A stretch of 64,000 nucleotides of DNA from Acetobacteraceae bacterium H6797 (GCA_015223225.1 JADFCQ010000002.1:372001-436000); one strand, 5' to 3'; counted from the stretch's first letter, positions 48,290-55,211 are shown. Program-made: numbers and translations. The notes: a model not told the origin generated them from the letters alone.

Positions 48290-49267
48290 ATGTTGAAAGC
48301 CGCGATCGTGGGCATGGGCCGCTGGGGCCAGACCCTGGTGAACAGCGTGCAGGGCTCGAATTCGGCGGGCATCACCTTCGTCTCCGGCACGACCGGCCGC
48401 CTGGAGCGGGCGCGCGACTATGCCGCCGAGAAGAACATCCGCCTGCTCGACAGCTATGACGCCGTCCTGGCCGATCCCGAGGTGAAGGCCGTGGTGCTGG
48501 CCTCGCCGCACCAGATGCATGCCGAACAGGTGATCGCCGCCGCCAAGGCGGGCAAGCATGTCTTCGTCGAGAAGCCCTTCACCATGAGCAAGGCCTCGGC
48601 CGAGGCGGCGGTCGCGGCCTGCAAGGCGGCCGGCGTGGTGCTGGCGCTGGGCCATAACCGCCGCTTCCTGCCCGCCGTGGCCGAGGTGAAGGCCATGAAG
48701 GCCTCGGGCAAGCTCGGCACGGTGCTGCATGTCGAGGGCCAGTTCAGCGGCCCGGGGGCTGCGGCCTATAAGCCCGGCATGTGGCGCGCGGACCCGACCG
48801 AGAGCCCGCTCGGCGGCATGGGCGGCATGGGCATTCATATGATCGACATGTTCATCAACCTGATGGGCGAGATCGGGCAGGTTTCCGTCATCTCCCAGGC
48901 CCGTGTGCTGGAGAACGGGCTGGACGATACAACCGCCATGCTCTGCCGCTTCAAGGAGGGCGCCACCGGCACCTTCGCAACGCTCGCCCTGGCGCCGCGT
49001 TGCTGGCGCGTGGCCCTCTATGGCACCGAGGGCTGGGTGGAACTGGTGGATCATGAACGCCTCACCTTCCGCCCGCGCGAGGGCGAGGGTTTCGTGAAGG
49101 AATTCCCGAAGACCGATATCGAGGCGGCGGAACTCACCGCCTTCGCCGCCGCCGTGGCGGGCGGGCCCGCCTATCCGCTGCCGGTGGAGCAGGCGATCCA
49201 TGGCGTGGCGGTCTATGAGACCATGATCCGCGCTGCGGCGGCCCAGGGGCCGGTCGCGGTCTACTAG
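48290..49267 (+). CDS. Gfo/Idh/MocA family oxidoreductase
   Basis: 325 aa NAD(P)-dependent sugar/polyol dehydrogenase family protein, from the ATG at 48290 with AGGAGAC before it. Rossmann start MLKAAIVGMGRWGQTLVNS, catalytic GKHVFVEKPFTMS (EKP), and the C-terminal domain with GHNRRFLPAVAEV and GMGIHMIDMFINLMG (His as proton donor). Substrate unknown. The reading frame ends inside a 15-bp tandem repeat. It lies 56 bp before the RibD-type reductase gene and could be the first gene of that operon. Confidence 0.88.
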   Translation: MLKAAIVGMGRWGQTLVNSVQGSNSAGITFVSGTTGRLERARDYAAEKNIRLLDSYDAVLADPEVKAVVLASPHQMHAEQVIAAAKAGKHVFVEKPFTMSKASAEAAVAACKAAGVVLALGHNRRFLPAVAEVKAMKASGKLGTVLHVEGQFSGPGAAAYKPGMWRADPTESPLGGMGGMGIHMIDMFINLMGEIGQVSVISQARVLENGLDDTTAMLCRFKEGATGTFATLALAPRCWRVALYGTEGWVELVDHERLTFRPREGEGFVKEFPKTDIEAAELTAFAAAVAGGPAYPLPVEQAIHGVAVYETMIRAAAAQGPVAVY

Positions 49268-49310
49268 GGCGCAGTCTACTAGGGCCCGGTCTACTAGGGC
49301 GCGGTCTGCT
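49259..49310 (+). repeat. 15-bp tandem repeat at the 3' end of the Gfo/Idh gene
   Basis: Three copies of GTCTACTAGGGCNCN at 49259, 49274 and 49289 plus a partial copy (GTCTGCT) at 49304. The first copy contains the gene's own Val-Tyr-stop; each further copy repeats an in-frame TAG. A recent local duplication by slippage is likely. Confidence 0.9.
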
Positions 49311-49323
49311 GAAGGAGAGGCGC

Positions 49324-50130
49324 TTGGCAGGGATGGACGATAGCGAGGCGGCCGCCTGGGCGGCGCTCTCCGCCCGGCGCGACGGCGCGGGGGCGGCCCT
49401 GCCCGCGCATCCCCTCACCTCGCTTTTCGCGCGGCTTTTCGAGCCGCCCACCGCGCCCGACGGCTGCATCGTCATCGGCCGCCTGGCCCAGACGCTGGAC
49501 GGGCGCATCGCGGCGAGGAACGGCCAGAGCCAATGGATCGGCGGGCCGGGCGACATGCTCCATACCCACCGGCTGCGCGCTCTCTGCCACGCCGTGGTGG
49601 TGGGCGCCGGCACGGTGAAGCATGACGATCCGCAGCTGACCACCCGGCTGGTGGAAGGCCCGAGCCCGCTGCGCGTGGTGATCGATACCGAGCGGCGACT
49701 GGGCACCGAATATCGCGTCTTCGCTCCGGGCGGGCCGCCGACGCTGCTGGCCTGCGCCGAAGACAGGCCCGGCGGCCCCACCCATGGCGTGGCCGAGGTG
49801 CTGAGCCTGCCGCGCTGCGAGATGGCCGGGCTCCGGCTCCCCGCCCTGTTGGCCGCCCTGGCCGCGCGGGGCATCACCCGGATTTTCGTCGAGGGCGGCG
49901 GCATCACCGTCTCCCGCTTCCTCGCCCAGGGGTTGCTGGACCGGCTGCACCTGACCGTCGCCCCCATCATTCTCGGCTCGGGCAAGCCCGCCTTCGCCCT
50001 GCCCGAGGCGCAATGCATCGATGACGGCATCCGCGCGGGCTGGGAGGTGCATCGCGTGGGCGATGACCTGCTCTGCGACCTCGCGCTGAACCGCGCCCGC
50101 CCGCGCATCTGCGACGGGGACGCGCCGTGA
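49324..50130 (+). CDS. RibD C-terminal-type pyrimidine reductase
   Basis: 268 aa, RibD-C/dihydrofolate-reductase fold without the RibD deaminase domain. Features: VIGRLAQTLDGRIAARNGQSQWI (substrate site), VVVGAGTVKHDDPQLTTRLV (typical of RibD) and RIFVEGGGITVSRFLAQG (NADPH glycine motif). In riboflavin synthesis this domain reduces the ribosyl side chain of a pyrimidine amine. The TTG at 49324 sits 3 nt after AAGGAGAGG; the ATG at 49333 is the alternative. First gene of a tight operon with MDR, PTPS-like, GT4 and methyltransferase genes, so it is likely a dedicated pathway enzyme. Confidence 0.88.
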   Translation: MAGMDDSEAAAWAALSARRDGAGAALPAHPLTSLFARLFEPPTAPDGCIVIGRLAQTLDGRIAARNGQSQWIGGPGDMLHTHRLRALCHAVVVGAGTVKHDDPQLTTRLVEGPSPLRVVIDTERRLGTEYRVFAPGGPPTLLACAEDRPGGPTHGVAEVLSLPRCEMAGLRLPALLAALAARGITRIFVEGGGITVSRFLAQGLLDRLHLTVAPIILGSGKPAFALPEAQCIDDGIRAGWEVHRVGDDLLCDLALNRARPRICDGDAP

Positions 50131-51083
50131 CCCAGGCCCGCGCCTTCTGGACCGTGGGGTCCGGACAGGGCGAGATCCGCCCCGAAGCCCTGCCGCCGCG
50201 CGGGGAGGATCAATGCCTCATCCGCGCCCTGGCCAGCGGCGTATCGCGCGGCACCGAGCGCCTCGTCTTCGCGGGCCGTGTGCCGGAGAACCAGCACGCG
50301 ACCATGCGATGCCCGCTTCAGGCCGGCGATTTTCCCTATCCCGTCAAATACGGCTACGCCGCCGTGGGGCTGGTGGAGGAAGGGAAGCACGCCGGGAAGC
50401 GCGTCTTCTGCCTGCATCCGCACCAGGACCGTTTCCTCGCCCCCGAGGGCATGTGCGTGCCCGTGCCCGATGCCCTGCCCGACGCCCGCGCCGTGTTGGG
50501 CGCGAATATGGAAACGGCGGTGAATATCCTCTGGGATGCGCGCCCGGCGCTCGGCGAGAAGGTGCTGGTGATCGGCGCCGGCGTGGTCGGGCTGCTCGCC
50601 GCGAGCCTCGCCGCGAAAGTTCCGGGCATGACGGTGACGGTCTGCGATATCGACCCTTCGCGCCGCGCCATCGCCGAGGCCATGGGCGCAAGCTTCGCCC
50701 TGCCTGAAGAGGCTCCCGGGCAGCAGGAACTCATCATCCATGCCAGTGCCAGCCCGGAAGGTCTGCGGCTGGCCCTCTCGCGCGCCGCCTTCGAGGGCCG
50801 AATTCTCGAAGCTTCCTGGTTCGGCGACAAGCAGGTCGCCCTGCCACTCGGCGAGAGCTTCCACAGCAAGCGGCTGCAGCTGCTCTCCACCCAGGTAGGC
50901 GCCGTTTCGCCCGCCATGCGCGGCCGCCGCGCCTATGCCGATCGCCTGGCGCTCGCCCTCTCGCTGCTGGAAGATGCGCGCTACGATGCGCTGCTGAGCC
51001 CCGAGACGCCCTTCGAGAAACTCCCCGAGGCCATGCCGGCCCTGCTCGCCGGCAATGCCCTCTGCCCCGTTATCCGCTATTGA
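50127..51083 (+). CDS. MDR (zinc-alcohol-dehydrogenase-like) oxidoreductase
   Basis: 318 aa medium-chain dehydrogenase/reductase fold. The NAD(P) motif is KVLVIGAGVVGLLAASLAAK, preceded by a GroES-like half (SGVSRGTERLVFAGRVPE; YPVKYGYAAVGLVEEG). The catalytic zinc ligands of alcohol dehydrogenases (Cys and GHE) are not seen, so it resembles the metal-free branch near bacteriochlorophyllide dehydrogenase BchC. It overlaps the RibD-type gene by 4 bp. Substrate unknown; the operon suggests a small molecule with an alcohol or ketone made from a pterin/pyrimidine precursor. Confidence 0.85.
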   Translation: MTQARAFWTVGSGQGEIRPEALPPRGEDQCLIRALASGVSRGTERLVFAGRVPENQHATMRCPLQAGDFPYPVKYGYAAVGLVEEGKHAGKRVFCLHPHQDRFLAPEGMCVPVPDALPDARAVLGANMETAVNILWDARPALGEKVLVIGAGVVGLLAASLAAKVPGMTVTVCDIDPSRRAIAEAMGASFALPEEAPGQQELIIHASASPEGLRLALSRAAFEGRILEASWFGDKQVALPLGESFHSKRLQLLSTQVGAVSPAMRGRRAYADRLALALSLLEDARYDALLSPETPFEKLPEAMPALLAGNALCPVIRY

Positions 51084-51096
51084 GGACCGCCCCACG

Positions 51097-51495
51097 ATGT
51101 TCAGCCTCACCGTCGCCGACCATGTGATGATCGCCCATTCCTTCGGGGGGGCGGAATTCGGCCCGGCGCAGAAGGTGCATGGCGCGACTTTCGTGGTGGA
51201 GGCCGAGTTCCGCGCGCCGAAGCTCGATCGCCTGAACCTGCTGGTCGATATCGCCGCCGCGCGGGTGGAGCTTCGCAAGATCCTCGACAGTTTCGACTAC
51301 AACAATCTCGACACCCTGCCGCAATTCGCCGGGCAGAACACCACGACCGAATATCTCTGCTTCCATATCCACGGCCTGCTCGTCGCGGCTCTGAAGGAAG
51401 GCAAGCTCGGCAAGGGCGGCGAGGGCGTCACCGCCATCAAGGTGCTGCTGCGCGAGAGCCCCCTCGCCTGGGCCGCCTATGAAGCCGAGGTCTGA
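51097..51495 (+). CDS. 6-pyruvoyl-tetrahydropterin synthase fold protein, degenerate active site
   Basis: 132 aa, PTPS/QueD family by length and fold pattern (MFSLTVADHVMIAHSF start; FDYNNLDTLP; IKVLLRES). Compared with E. coli QueD, zinc His H14 (IAHSF) and H28 (VHGAT) remain, but the third His is A30, the catalytic Cys position is A24, and the catalytic His of LDHHYLN is Y68. The pterin-anchoring Glu (E120) and D67 remain. It should thus not carry out the normal lyase reaction, but it may still bind a pterin. It lies 13 bp after the MDR gene and 3 bp before GT4. Confidence 0.85.
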   Translation: MFSLTVADHVMIAHSFGGAEFGPAQKVHGATFVVEAEFRAPKLDRLNLLVDIAAARVELRKILDSFDYNNLDTLPQFAGQNTTTEYLCFHIHGLLVAALKEGKLGKGGEGVTAIKVLLRESPLAWAAYEAEV

Positions 51496-51498
51496 GCC

Positions 51499-52545
51499 AT
51501 GAAGATCGCGCTCCTCGTCCCGGGCCCCTTCACCATCGTCTCCGGCGGCTACAATTACGACCGCCGCGTGGTCGCCGGGCTCCGCGCCCTCGGCCATGAG
51601 GTGCAGGTGGTGGAGCTGACCGGCCGCCACCCGCTGCCGGATGCGGCGGCCGAGGCCTCGGCGCTCGCCGCACTCGATGCCGTGCCCAAGGATGTCGCGC
51701 TGGTCATCGACGGGCTCGGCCTGCCGGCTCTCGCGAGCCGGGCGCAGGAGCTGGTGGAGCGCGGCGCGGTCGGGCTCATCCATCACCCGACGGCGCTGGA
51801 GCCGGGCTATACCGACGAGGAACGCGAGTCCCTCAAGGCGCGCGAGAAGGCGCTCTTCACCTCGATGAAGGCGCTGATCGCAACCTCGCCGCTGACCGGC
51901 CGGCAGCTCACCGAGGAATTCGCCGTCGATCCCGCCCGCGTCACCATCGTCGAGCCGGGGACGGACCCCGCGCCGCGCAGCGAAGGCTCGAAGAGCGAGG
52001 TGGTGCAGATCCTCACCGTCGCCGTGCTGGTGCCGCGCAAGGGGCATGACGTGCTGCTGCGCGCCCTCGCCCGGCTCACCGACCTGGACTGGCACCAGAC
52101 CTTCGTCGGCAGCCCGCGCGACCCGGTCTATGCGCGCCAGCTCGAAGCCCTGGTGGAGGAACTCGGCCTTACCGGCCGCGTGACCTTCGCGGGCGAGGAA
52201 ACCGACGCGCAGCTCGAGAAGCGTTATGCCGGCGCCGATCTCTTCGCGCTGGCCACCTATTGGGAAGGCTATGGCATGGCCGCGGCCGAGGCCCTGGCCC
52301 GCGGCCTGCCGGTCGCCATCACCGCCGGGGGCGCCATCGCGGAAGTGGTGCCGCCGCAGGCCGGCGTGATCGCCCCGCCGGGCGACCATAACGTGCTCTC
52401 CCGTGCCATGCGCCGCCCCATCGCCGATCCGGACCTGCGCCGCGAGATGGCCGATGCCGCCTGGGAGGCCGGGCAGCGCCTGCCGCGCTGGGACGATCGC
52501 GCGGCGCTCTTCGTCACCGTCATCGAGAAGGCGCTCGCCCCGTGA
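51499..52545 (+). CDS. Family 4 (GT-B) glycosyltransferase
   Basis: 348 aa, no TM segment. N-terminal Rossmann half MKIALLVPGPFTIVSGGYNYDRRV with the GG loop; C-terminal nucleotide-sugar half with AVLVPRKGHDVLLRAL and the retaining GT motif TYWEGYGMAAAEALARGLPV (E-x7-E). Start 3 nt after the PTPS-like gene; the end overlaps the methyltransferase. The donor would be an NDP- or UDP-sugar. The operon makes glycosylation of a small molecule more likely than of a polysaccharide (inference). Confidence 0.9.
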   Translation: MKIALLVPGPFTIVSGGYNYDRRVVAGLRALGHEVQVVELTGRHPLPDAAAEASALAALDAVPKDVALVIDGLGLPALASRAQELVERGAVGLIHHPTALEPGYTDEERESLKAREKALFTSMKALIATSPLTGRQLTEEFAVDPARVTIVEPGTDPAPRSEGSKSEVVQILTVAVLVPRKGHDVLLRALARLTDLDWHQTFVGSPRDPVYARQLEALVEELGLTGRVTFAGEETDAQLEKRYAGADLFALATYWEGYGMAAAEALARGLPVAITAGGAIAEVVPPQAGVIAPPGDHNVLSRAMRRPIADPDLRREMADAAWEAGQRLPRWDDRAALFVTVIEKALAP

Positions 52546-53414
52546 CCGAGGTTTTCGACGGCGACTGGCTGGACCAGCGCGAGGGTTTCGACGCCCAGGC
52601 CCGCTCGCCCGAACTGGCGCTGATGCTGGCCGATGCGCTCCCCGCCCGGCCCCGCCTGCTGGATCTCGGCGCGGGCACCGGCTCGCTCGCGCGCTGGATG
52701 GGGCCGCTCATCGGGCGGTCGCAGGCCTGGACGCTGGTGGATGCCGACCGGCTGCTGATCGAGCGCGCCTTCGTCACCATCAGCGACCGCGCCAATGCCG
52801 TGGGCTGGAACACCACCTGGCCCGGCAAGCGCACGCTGCTGGTGCATTCCCCGCGCGGCACCTGGCGCATCGAGGGGCTCCAGGCCGATCTGCGCGCCAT
52901 TCCGGGCAGCCTGCCACTGCATAATATCGATGCCGTGGTCTGCACCGCGCTTTGCGATCTCGTCTCGGCCGCCTGGGTCGAGAAGATCGCCGCCGCCTGC
53001 GCCGCGCGCCGCCTGCCCTTCTATGCCGCGCTGAATGTCGATGGCCGCGAGCGCTTCATCCCGCCGCATCCGCTCGACGGGCTGGTGATGGGCGGCTTCA
53101 CCCGCGACCAGGGCCGCGACAAGGGCTTCGGCGGCCGCGCGCTCGGGCGACAGGCAACGGCGGCGCTGACGGCGGCCTTCAAGGCGCAGGGTTACGAGGT
53201 GCATCACGCGGCCAGCCCCTGGGTCGCGGGCCCGGGCCATTCCGAATTCGCCGCGACCCTCGCCTGGGGCCATGCCGAGGCGGCGATGAATGCCCTGCCG
53301 CGCGAAAGCGCCCGCATCGAGGCCTGGGCCGAGACGCGCGAACGCCAGGCGGTCAACGGCAAGCTCCAGGCCCGGATCGGCCATACCGATCTCCTGGCGC
53401 TGCCGCCCAAGTAA
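52542..53414 (+). CDS. SAM-dependent methyltransferase (class I)
   Basis: 290 aa, starting at a GTG overlapping the GT4 stop (GTGA). Motif I LLDLGAGTGSLARWMGPL binds SAM, with TLVDAD as the acidic loop and DAVVCTALCDLVSAAWVEK as motif IV region. The C-terminal 90 residues (SPWVAGPGHSEFAATLAWGHAEA) look like a substrate domain. Acceptor unknown; last member of the five-gene pathway operon. The tetronate kinase gene follows after 14 bp and might share the transcript. Confidence 0.88.
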   Translation: MTEVFDGDWLDQREGFDAQARSPELALMLADALPARPRLLDLGAGTGSLARWMGPLIGRSQAWTLVDADRLLIERAFVTISDRANAVGWNTTWPGKRTLLVHSPRGTWRIEGLQADLRAIPGSLPLHNIDAVVCTALCDLVSAAWVEKIAAACAARRLPFYAALNVDGRERFIPPHPLDGLVMGGFTRDQGRDKGFGGRALGRQATAALTAAFKAQGYEVHHAASPWVAGPGHSEFAATLAWGHAEAAMNALPRESARIEAWAETRERQAVNGKLQARIGHTDLLALPPK

Positions 53415-53428
53415 TCAGGATTAGGACT

Positions 53429-54682
53429 ATGCCTCTGCTCGGCTGCATCGCCGATGATTTCACCGGCGCGACGGACCTCGCCTCCATGCTCGTGCGCCAT
53501 GGCATGACGGCGGTGCAGGTGATCGGCGTGCCGCATGGGCCGGTGCCCGAGGCGGATGCGGTGATCATCGCGCTCAAATCCCGCACCATCCCCGCGAAGG
53601 AGGCGATCGCCGAGAGCCTCGCCGCCTGCGACGCGCTGCTGGCCATGGGCGCGAAGCAGATCTTCTTCAAATACTGCTCGACCTTCGACAGCACCGAGGC
53701 GGGCAATATCGGCCCCGTCGCGGATGCGCTGATGAAGCGGCTCGGCGGCTCGCTGGCCGTCGCCTGCCCGGCTTTCCCGGCCAATGGTCGGACGGTGTAT
53801 CTGGGCCATCTCTTCGTCGGCAATGCGCTGCTCAACGAGAGCGGGATGGAGAACCACCCGCTCACGCCCATGACCGACCCCAACCTGCTCCGCGTGCTGA
53901 CGCGGCAGACCGAGGGCGGCGTGGGCCTCGTGCCCTTCCCCGTGGTGCAGCAGGGTGCGGGGGCCATCCGCACCGCCCTGTCGCGCCTAGCCGATTCCGG
54001 GCGGCGCTACGCCATCACCGACGCGGTGACGGATGAGAACCTGATGGCCATCGGCGAGGCCGTGGCGGCCCATCCGCTGGTCACCGGCGGGTCGGGCGTG
54101 GCCATGGGCCTGCCGGGGAATTTCCGCCGTGCCGGGCTGCTGCCCGCGCGTGAGGATGCGGGCGCCTTGCCCCCACGCCAGGGGCTCATGGCCGTGCTCG
54201 CCGGCTCCTGCTCGCGCGCGACCCTCGCCCAGATCGGCTATGCCCGCGCCAGCGACCTGCCGGTGCTGGAACTCGACGCGCTGGCGAAGCCCGATGCGAA
54301 GGAACTCGCGCGCCAAGCCATCGACTGGATGGCGGACAAGCTCTCCACCGAGCGGCCCCTGGTGATCGCGGGCTCGGCCCCGCCCGAGAAGGTCGCCGCC
54401 CTCCAGGCGAAGCTCGGCCGCGAGGCGGCGGGCGCGCTCATCGAGCGGGCACTCTCCCATGTGGCGGAGGAGATGTTCCATCGCGGCGTGGGCCAGCTCG
54501 TGGTGGCGGGCGGGGAGACTTCCGGCGCGGTCGTCTCGCGCCTGGCCGTCACCAGCCTGCGCATCGGCGAGGAGATCGACCCCGGCGTGCCCTGGACCTA
54601 TGCCGCGCCCATCGGCATCCATCTCGCCCTGAAATCGGGAAATTTCGGCGGGCGGGATTTCTTCCTGCGCGCTTTCGATTGA
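53429..54682 (+). CDS. otnK: Four-carbon acid sugar kinase, 3-oxo-tetronate kinase (DUF1537) type
   Basis: 417 aa. The N-terminal half begins LGCIADDFTGATDLASML, the DUF1537 signature; the ATP-binding C-terminal half has LVVAGGETSGAVVSRL and ends SGNFGGRDFFLRAFD. OtnK phosphorylates 3-oxo-tetronate in four-carbon acid-sugar breakdown together with OtnC and OtnI, none of which is visible here. The specific symbol is a guess within the family (4-hydroxythreonine and tetronate kinases are alike). The ATG has GGATTAGGA upstream. Confidence 0.82.
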   Translation: MPLLGCIADDFTGATDLASMLVRHGMTAVQVIGVPHGPVPEADAVIIALKSRTIPAKEAIAESLAACDALLAMGAKQIFFKYCSTFDSTEAGNIGPVADALMKRLGGSLAVACPAFPANGRTVYLGHLFVGNALLNESGMENHPLTPMTDPNLLRVLTRQTEGGVGLVPFPVVQQGAGAIRTALSRLADSGRRYAITDAVTDENLMAIGEAVAAHPLVTGGSGVAMGLPGNFRRAGLLPAREDAGALPPRQGLMAVLAGSCSRATLAQIGYARASDLPVLELDALAKPDAKELARQAIDWMADKLSTERPLVIAGSAPPEKVAALQAKLGREAAGALIERALSHVAEEMFHRGVGQLVVAGGETSGAVVSRLAVTSLRIGEEIDPGVPWTYAAPIGIHLALKSGNFGGRDFFLRAFD

Positions 54683-54812: not shown

Positions 54813-55211
54813 ATGCCGCTCACCATCTCGATCGTCGCGCATGACCGCATGAAGCCCGCCATGGCCGAATGGGTCGCGCGCCATGCGGCGCATCTCCAGG
54901 GCCATCGCCTGGTCTGCACCGCCACCACAGGCGGCGTGGTGCGCCAGCACTGCCCCGATCTCGACATCACCACGGTGAAGAGCGGCCCGCTCGGCGGCGA
55001 CCAACAGATCGGCGGCATGATAGCCGAAGGGAAGGTCAACGCGCTGATCTTCTTCCCCGACCCCATGACGCCCATGCCCCATGATGTCGACGTGAAGGCT
55101 CTGCTGCGCATCGCGCTGCTGTATGACGTGCCCTGCGCCTTCAACCCGGCGACCGCCGACATGCTCATCGCCGGCGGGCTGCTCGCCGCGAAAGCCCCCT
55201 CGGCGGCCTAA
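54813..55211 (+). CDS. mgsA: Methylglyoxal synthase
   Basis: 132 aa. Turns dihydroxyacetone phosphate into methylglyoxal and phosphate. Family motifs: IVAHDRMKPAMAEWV, TATTGG (phosphate binding), SGPLGGDQQIGGMI with the catalytic Asp, and the catalytic His in FFPDPMTPMPHDVDVKALLR. The frame is complete; the stop overlaps the convergent corC-type stop by 3 bp. The place after a tetronate kinase may be chance. Confidence 0.93.
   Translation: MPLTISIVAHDRMKPAMAEWVARHAAHLQGHRLVCTATTGGVVRQHCPDLDITTVKSGPLGGDQQIGGMIAEGKVNALIFFPDPMTPMPHDVDVKALLRIALLYDVPCAFNPATADMLIAGGLLAAKAPSAA

Follow-up and report, generated by a model that had tools for sequence, protein, structure and literature searches.

Five genes on the plus strand of an Acetobacteraceae genome, at positions 49324–53414 of the window (the whole 64,000-nt stretch analysed here, G000:C2:372001-436000 of Acetobacteraceae bacterium H6797), are the core genes of a cluster that is conserved in several phyla. 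They encode a RibD_C reductase (RIBDC), an MDR dehydrogenase, a PTPS-like protein, a GT4 glycosyltransferase and a class I methyltransferase (MT), and we think it likely that they represent the core of a small-molecule pathway leading from the product of GTP cyclohydrolase II (GCH II) through a ribityl-pyrimidine to a glycosylated and methylated compound. The pyrimidine made by GCH II would thereby serve another purpose in addition to riboflavin synthesis. The cluster also gives a pathway context, and with it testability, to the crystal structure 3D7J and to a cyclohydrolase variant with a reportedly altered product. A search of open-access papers found no published description of the cluster.

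The window sequence contains all five open reading frames where the first-pass annotation had placed them, with the same spacings, and thus as a tight operon; Pfam matches agree with the five families described there. RIBDC (49324–50130, plus strand, starting at TTG 49324 or ATG 49333) is a RibD_C reductase without a deaminase and overlaps by 4 bp the gene for an MDR dehydrogenase that lacks the usual zinc ligands (50127–51083, plus strand, GTG start). The PTPS-like protein, a member of the SCO6650 subfamily (51097–51495, plus strand, ATG start), follows after 13 bp; the mechanically derived start of its reading frame, at 51055, is too early. The GT4 glycosyltransferase (51499–52545, plus strand), with the EX7E motif EGYGMAAAE, lies 3 bp further on and overlaps by 4 bp the gene for MT (52542–53414, plus strand, GTG start), a class I SAM methyltransferase of its own family with a DLGAGTG motif. 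An OtnK-type 3-oxo-tetronate kinase (53429–54682, plus strand; NCBIfam OxoTetrKin, 3e-178) begins 14 bp 3′ of MT and is probably co-transcribed with the five genes.

Using the PTPS-like protein as the marker, an alignment-based scan of genome contigs from one species-level collection found no fewer than 584 loci; 80 of them were retained. Members of the subfamily score 8e-45 or better and other PTPS proteins 1e-14 or worse; at 8e-45 or better, the gene is present in 45 of 385 alphaproteobacterial whole genomes sampled and in 27 of 398 whole genomes sampled from the phylum. Plasmid-borne copies occur in Methylosinus, Rhizobium, Palleronia and Streptomyces. Scan loci, plasmid records and genome stretches together provided 134 loci, which were mapped with HMMs built for this analysis and divided into 62 of the window's family (Acetobacteraceae-type) and 72 others; they span Alpha- and Gammaproteobacteria, Actinobacteria, Gemmatimonadota, Acidobacteria and Myxococcota. 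Gene content was taken from called genes. The loci were picked through the PTPS-like or the MT gene, which makes the presence of PTPS in 100% of them a matter of construction, and the absence of a gene from a locus at a contig end may be due to that end.

Of the 111 loci in which MDR, PTPS-like, GT4 and MT genes are all present, 109 show them in the same order and on the same strand (50/50 family loci and 59/61 others). RIBDC is present in 113 of the 134 loci (60/62 family, 53/72 others); MDR, GT4 and MT occur in 60, 59 and 50 of the family loci and in 71, 68 and 64 of the others, respectively. Creatininase (23), sulfatase-like (15) and cytochrome b561 (12) genes accompany them among the 72 non-family loci. 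The families that the first-pass annotation had joined into one pathway therefore travel together, far past the alphaproteobacteria, rather than lying scattered with no shared neighbourhood, and because the order is conserved across phyla, the association goes beyond chance. The distances of the five proteins also co-vary (r 0.64–0.90, with relatedness not removed, against shuffle maxima of at most 0.37), and relatedness alone could explain part of this. Viral contigs searched for relatives of MT held none. The OtnK-type kinase, near the core in 55/62 family loci versus 0/72 others, was ruled out as a core member. MFS and Gfo/Idh genes, which had been thought to supply the export step and the sugar, lie beside the operon in 1 of the 134 loci, the window itself; no conserved sugar or export step therefore comes from them, and we do not count them as pathway members.

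A GTP cyclohydrolase gene joins the five families as well. GCH II lies in the same stretch in 34 of the 72 non-family loci and retains the cysteines that correspond in alignment to the zinc cysteines of the E. coli enzyme. All cyclohydrolases found in the cluster are of type II, with neither cyclohydrolase I nor any other cyclohydrolase family recurring in the 134 mapped loci, which places the entry in the diaminopyrimidine branch and not in pterin synthesis proper. The earlier proposal of a GTP-fed pathway to a pyrimidine or a pterin is thus narrowed: its pyrimidine half gains from the GCH II partner, and its pterin half, with no recurring cyclohydrolase I, is less favoured. RIBDC is missing at 19 and GCH II at 38 of the 72 non-family loci, and neither is therefore strictly required at the locus.

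The window's genome has no cyclohydrolase inside the operon. Two GCH II domains were found in this genome, one in a long protein (C2:227141-228286) and one in RibBA, where the zinc cysteines have been lost. The enzyme at G000:C2:227141, 196 kb from the operon, is thus the only intact GCH II found; given the state of RibBA, it must serve riboflavin too, and it is probably common to riboflavin synthesis and the operon pathway. Because this enzyme is distant and serves riboflavin, its link to the operon is one that we infer. A cyclohydrolase dedicated to the operon was ruled out in this genome, the RibBA domain being the sole other candidate. The long GCH II occurs in 16/16 family genomes with the PTPS-like gene versus 9/19 without it, a co-occurrence that is confounded by relatedness.

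From gene content, conserved order, residue losses and the presence and type of the cyclohydrolase, we infer the following reactions and product. GCH II, in the window's genome probably the C2:227141 enzyme, would open GTP, and the starting compound would be 2,5-diamino-6-ribosylaminopyrimidinone phosphate, which is common to riboflavin synthesis. RIBDC would reduce the ribosyl group to a ribityl chain, and the zinc-less MDR enzyme may oxidize or reduce this polyol chain. The PTPS-like protein may use its retained glutamate site to bind the 2-amino-4-oxopyrimidine or a pterin derived from this pyrimidine. Having lost the catalytic Cys, the third zinc His and the Asp-His pair, it would carry out chemistry other than that of PTPS. 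A sugar would be attached by GT4 and a methyl group by MT. In many other bacteria the set is extended by a CDP-alcohol phosphatidyltransferase and a flippase-like protein, pointing to a membrane-linked form there.

The MDR protein has a weak Pfam ADH_zinc_N match, and nearly all of 32 members, assigned by motif, carry SRGTE and YGY at the sites expected for CxSD and GHE; the absence of zinc ligands noticed in the window thus extends to its relatives. Its model (pLDDT 94) has polyol and alcohol dehydrogenases as top folds, such as RspB, L-idonate dehydrogenase and sorbitol dehydrogenase. GT4 matches Pfam Glycos_transf_1 at 3e-29, and the EX7E motif is found in the window's protein and in most of 131 members. 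MT has a weak Pfam class I methyltransferase match and no NCBIfam match, and its model (pLDDT 96) adopts the class I methyltransferase fold with distant matches only. As MT is absent at 12 of the 62 family loci, methylation may not be universal.

The membrane genes of other lineages bear on the nature of the product. A CDP-alcohol phosphatidyltransferase with a complete DGxxAR motif and PgsA-like HMM matches is present in 40 of the 72 non-family loci and an LPG_synthase_TM flippase-like protein in 24, and three alphaproteobacteria whose fetched locus lacks the transferase have a full match elsewhere in the genome. These genes are what would be expected if, in those lineages, the phosphatidyltransferase, GT4, the flippase-like protein and MT built a glycosylated phospholipid with a ribityl-pyrimidine head group, an explanation that we regard as unlikely. 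The window locus has no creatininase, phosphatidyltransferase or flippase-like gene, and the transferase was sought and was absent in all 16 family genomes and in the window's own (best score 34 bits, versus 228–298 for true members); for the window's genome the lipid explanation therefore fails unless another enzyme substitutes. Rather doubtful, too, is a broader version, in which the cluster product is a pyrimidine or pterin lipid, glycosylated and anchored in the membrane, and the window's family makes a shortened, unanchored form of it; here, the phosphatidyltransferase would join the GTP-derived ribityl-pyrimidine to lipid, GT4 and MT would decorate it and the flippase-like protein would turn it outward.

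The PTPS-like protein (Pfam PTPS, 1e-19) belongs with SCO6650 of Streptomyces coelicolor, as indicated both by a profile match of 1.4e-63 and by the motif FGPAQxxHGAT; the solved structure of SCO6650 (3D7J) is labelled uncharacterized. HGA replaces HGH in 135 of 138 called genes, the other three not matching the motif search pattern, and alignments of the 138 reveal no catalytic Cys in the motif. The degeneracy first noticed in the window is thus general: the subfamily has lost the catalytic Cys, the third of the usual zinc histidines (two are kept) and the Asp-His pair, and has kept the HG and ES motifs. Invariant residues include the first His, HG, NLD, TE and one Glu, which we take, from QueD, to be the pterin-anchoring site of the family. 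A 2008 report on 3D7J is said to have described zinc and the catalytic triad as missing and the pterin-binding residues as kept. Subfamilies I–III of the QueD/PTPS family (COG0720) share the fold and the pterin-side motifs with the PTPS-like protein; unlike them, it carries FGPAQxxHGAT in place of HGH with a catalytic Cys or Glu (CxxxHGH, CxxxxxHGH and ExxHGH; PMC5041015). The same paper calls the status of a further subfamily, 'PTPS-V', unclear. A second PTPS-family gene of the window's genome, at C3:291742, is separate from the operon.

The retained fold and pterin-anchoring ES motif would suit a true pterin pathway, in which the PTPS-like protein acts on dihydroneopterin triphosphate from GTP cyclohydrolase I and the product is a glycosylated, methylated pterin akin to cyanopterin or biopterin glucoside; cyanobacterial glycosylated pterins with a dedicated glycosyltransferase do exist (PMC3546692). 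This is improbable, given that the cluster cyclohydrolases are of type II without a recurring type I, and that the whole subfamily lacks the catalytic Cys and third zinc His. To our knowledge, a DARPP-type reductase has no place in pterin synthesis either. Cyanopterin, other pterin glycosides and the pepteridine cluster of Photorhabdus likewise combine a GTP-derived ring with tailoring enzymes, and the pepteridine cluster includes a PTPS homologue together with an NRPS-type part (PMC5384830). Cyanopterin-type and pepteridine pathways use GTP cyclohydrolase I, unlike our cluster, and the consulted passages of PMC5384830 and PMC3546692 report neither RibD-C nor a zinc-less form of PTPS for them. 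GTP cyclohydrolase I with an active PTPS or a pterin aldolase, the mark of a cyanopterin-type pathway, is not found in the cluster.

RIBDC (Pfam RibD_C, 7e-42, no deaminase domain; conserved motifs GxxT, DDP and EGG) has as its best solved relative the DARPP reductase 6p8c (3.1e-25). A deaminase-less RibD_C protein near an annotated DARPP reductase, it is of the ArfC/Rib7 type and, judged by sequence, a probable 2,5-diamino-6-ribosylaminopyrimidinone 5′-phosphate reductase. The archaeal and fungal order of riboflavin synthesis (GCH II, or GCH III and ArfB, followed by DARPP reductase) likewise begins with a GCH II-type step and uses a deaminase-less reductase near 6p8c, and actinobacterial clusters have a creatininase-family protein, as ArfB is. 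Unlike riboflavin synthesis, the cluster has MDR, PTPS-like, GT4 and MT in addition, and its recurrent genes in the mapped loci include no deaminase, lumazine synthase or riboflavin synthase; nor does the operon bring together RibD with a deaminase, RibB, RibH and RibE in the manner of a riboflavin operon. Among the four RibD_C matches in the window's genome, the strongest is a full RibD (deaminase and RibD_C) adjoining RibBA at G000:C2:672-675 kb. The case that would have refuted the first-pass reading, RIBDC as the sole riboflavin reductase of this organism, therefore does not apply. RIBDC and GCH II are riboflavin-type enzymes, but it is hardly credible that they are riboflavin-boosting paralogues among chance neighbours, a view contradicted by a neighbourhood whose order is kept across several phyla and by the complete RibD with RibBA elsewhere in the genome, and we know of no role for MDR, PTPS-like, GT4 or MT in riboflavin synthesis.

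In the GCH II-fed pathway that we favour, RIBDC is a replaceable member, its place being taken by creatininase in Actinobacteria with a Met/His cyclohydrolase. At the alignment position of Tyr105 in E. coli RibA, 28 of the 35 cyclohydrolases read carry Tyr and 7 carry Met or His. All seven Met/His enzymes are from actinobacterial loci with a creatininase, and RIBDC is absent from six of these loci; RIBDC accompanies 26 of the 28 Tyr enzymes, the exceptions being locus L126 and the stand-alone gene of the window's genome, where RIBDC sits elsewhere in the genome. The association between RIBDC absence and Met/His has a Fisher p of ~1e-4, not corrected for relatedness. Met at this site reportedly makes SCO6655 yield a formylated FAPy rather than the diaminopyrimidine, a finding ascribed to Spoonamore in 2006, and ArfB, the FAPy deformylase of archaea, is a member of the creatininase family. 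The actinobacterial creatininases match the ArfB model weakly and the MftE and creatininase models better, all below the cut-off, and a role as FAPy deformylase is our guess. In PMC2853524, SCO6655 appears among the genes listed, as a GTP cyclohydrolase II with expression opposed to the predicted riboflavin flux. As a separate observation, Gammaproteobacteria and others have a more distant creatininase alongside a Tyr-type cyclohydrolase and RIBDC, an arrangement that the deformylase reading does not explain. The same cluster occurs in two Streptomyces loci (L024 and L125), where the cyclohydrolase is of the Met type and a creatininase is present; the window differs from them in having RIBDC, and the cyclohydrolase, of the Tyr type, lies elsewhere in its genome.

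The RibBA protein encoded at the riboflavin locus (L042:7373-8542) carries a GTP cyclohydrolase II (GCH II) domain that lacks the zinc cysteines, and therefore the long GCH II encoded outside the operon (C2:227141) is probably the sole active GCH II.

The family to which the window belongs comprises 62 Acetobacteraceae-type loci. Flagellar genes encoding FlgI, a rod-binding protein and a FlgN-like protein lie near the operon in roughly 37 of these loci (for example, L068:6844-7242, L066:6507-6827 and L089:4211-5320), and in L068 the flagellar neighbour sits about 20 bp upstream of the RibD_C reductase gene. This place is occupied in the window by the MFS and Gfo/Idh genes, and a 15-bp unit (ggtctactagggcgc) is present in about three copies (window 49258-49307) between Gfo/Idh and the reductase gene. 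The methyltransferase gene is missing from some family loci (L064, L066, L067 and L069), with the flanking genes still present.

Within the family, an OtnK-type (3-oxo-tetronate kinase-type) gene (window 53429-54682) is found near the operon, as is a class II aldolase gene (for example, L074:12752-13381) in 43/62 loci; neither gene was found near the operon in any of the 72 loci outside the family. OtnK is followed in the window by a gene for a methylglyoxal synthase-type (MGS-like) protein (54813-55208), which occurs in seven family loci. Genes recurring near the cluster in the 72 non-family loci encode YceI-like (13 loci; L169:5742-6350), cytochrome b561 (12; L022:10567-11097) and sulfatase-like (15; L173:7296-8912) proteins.
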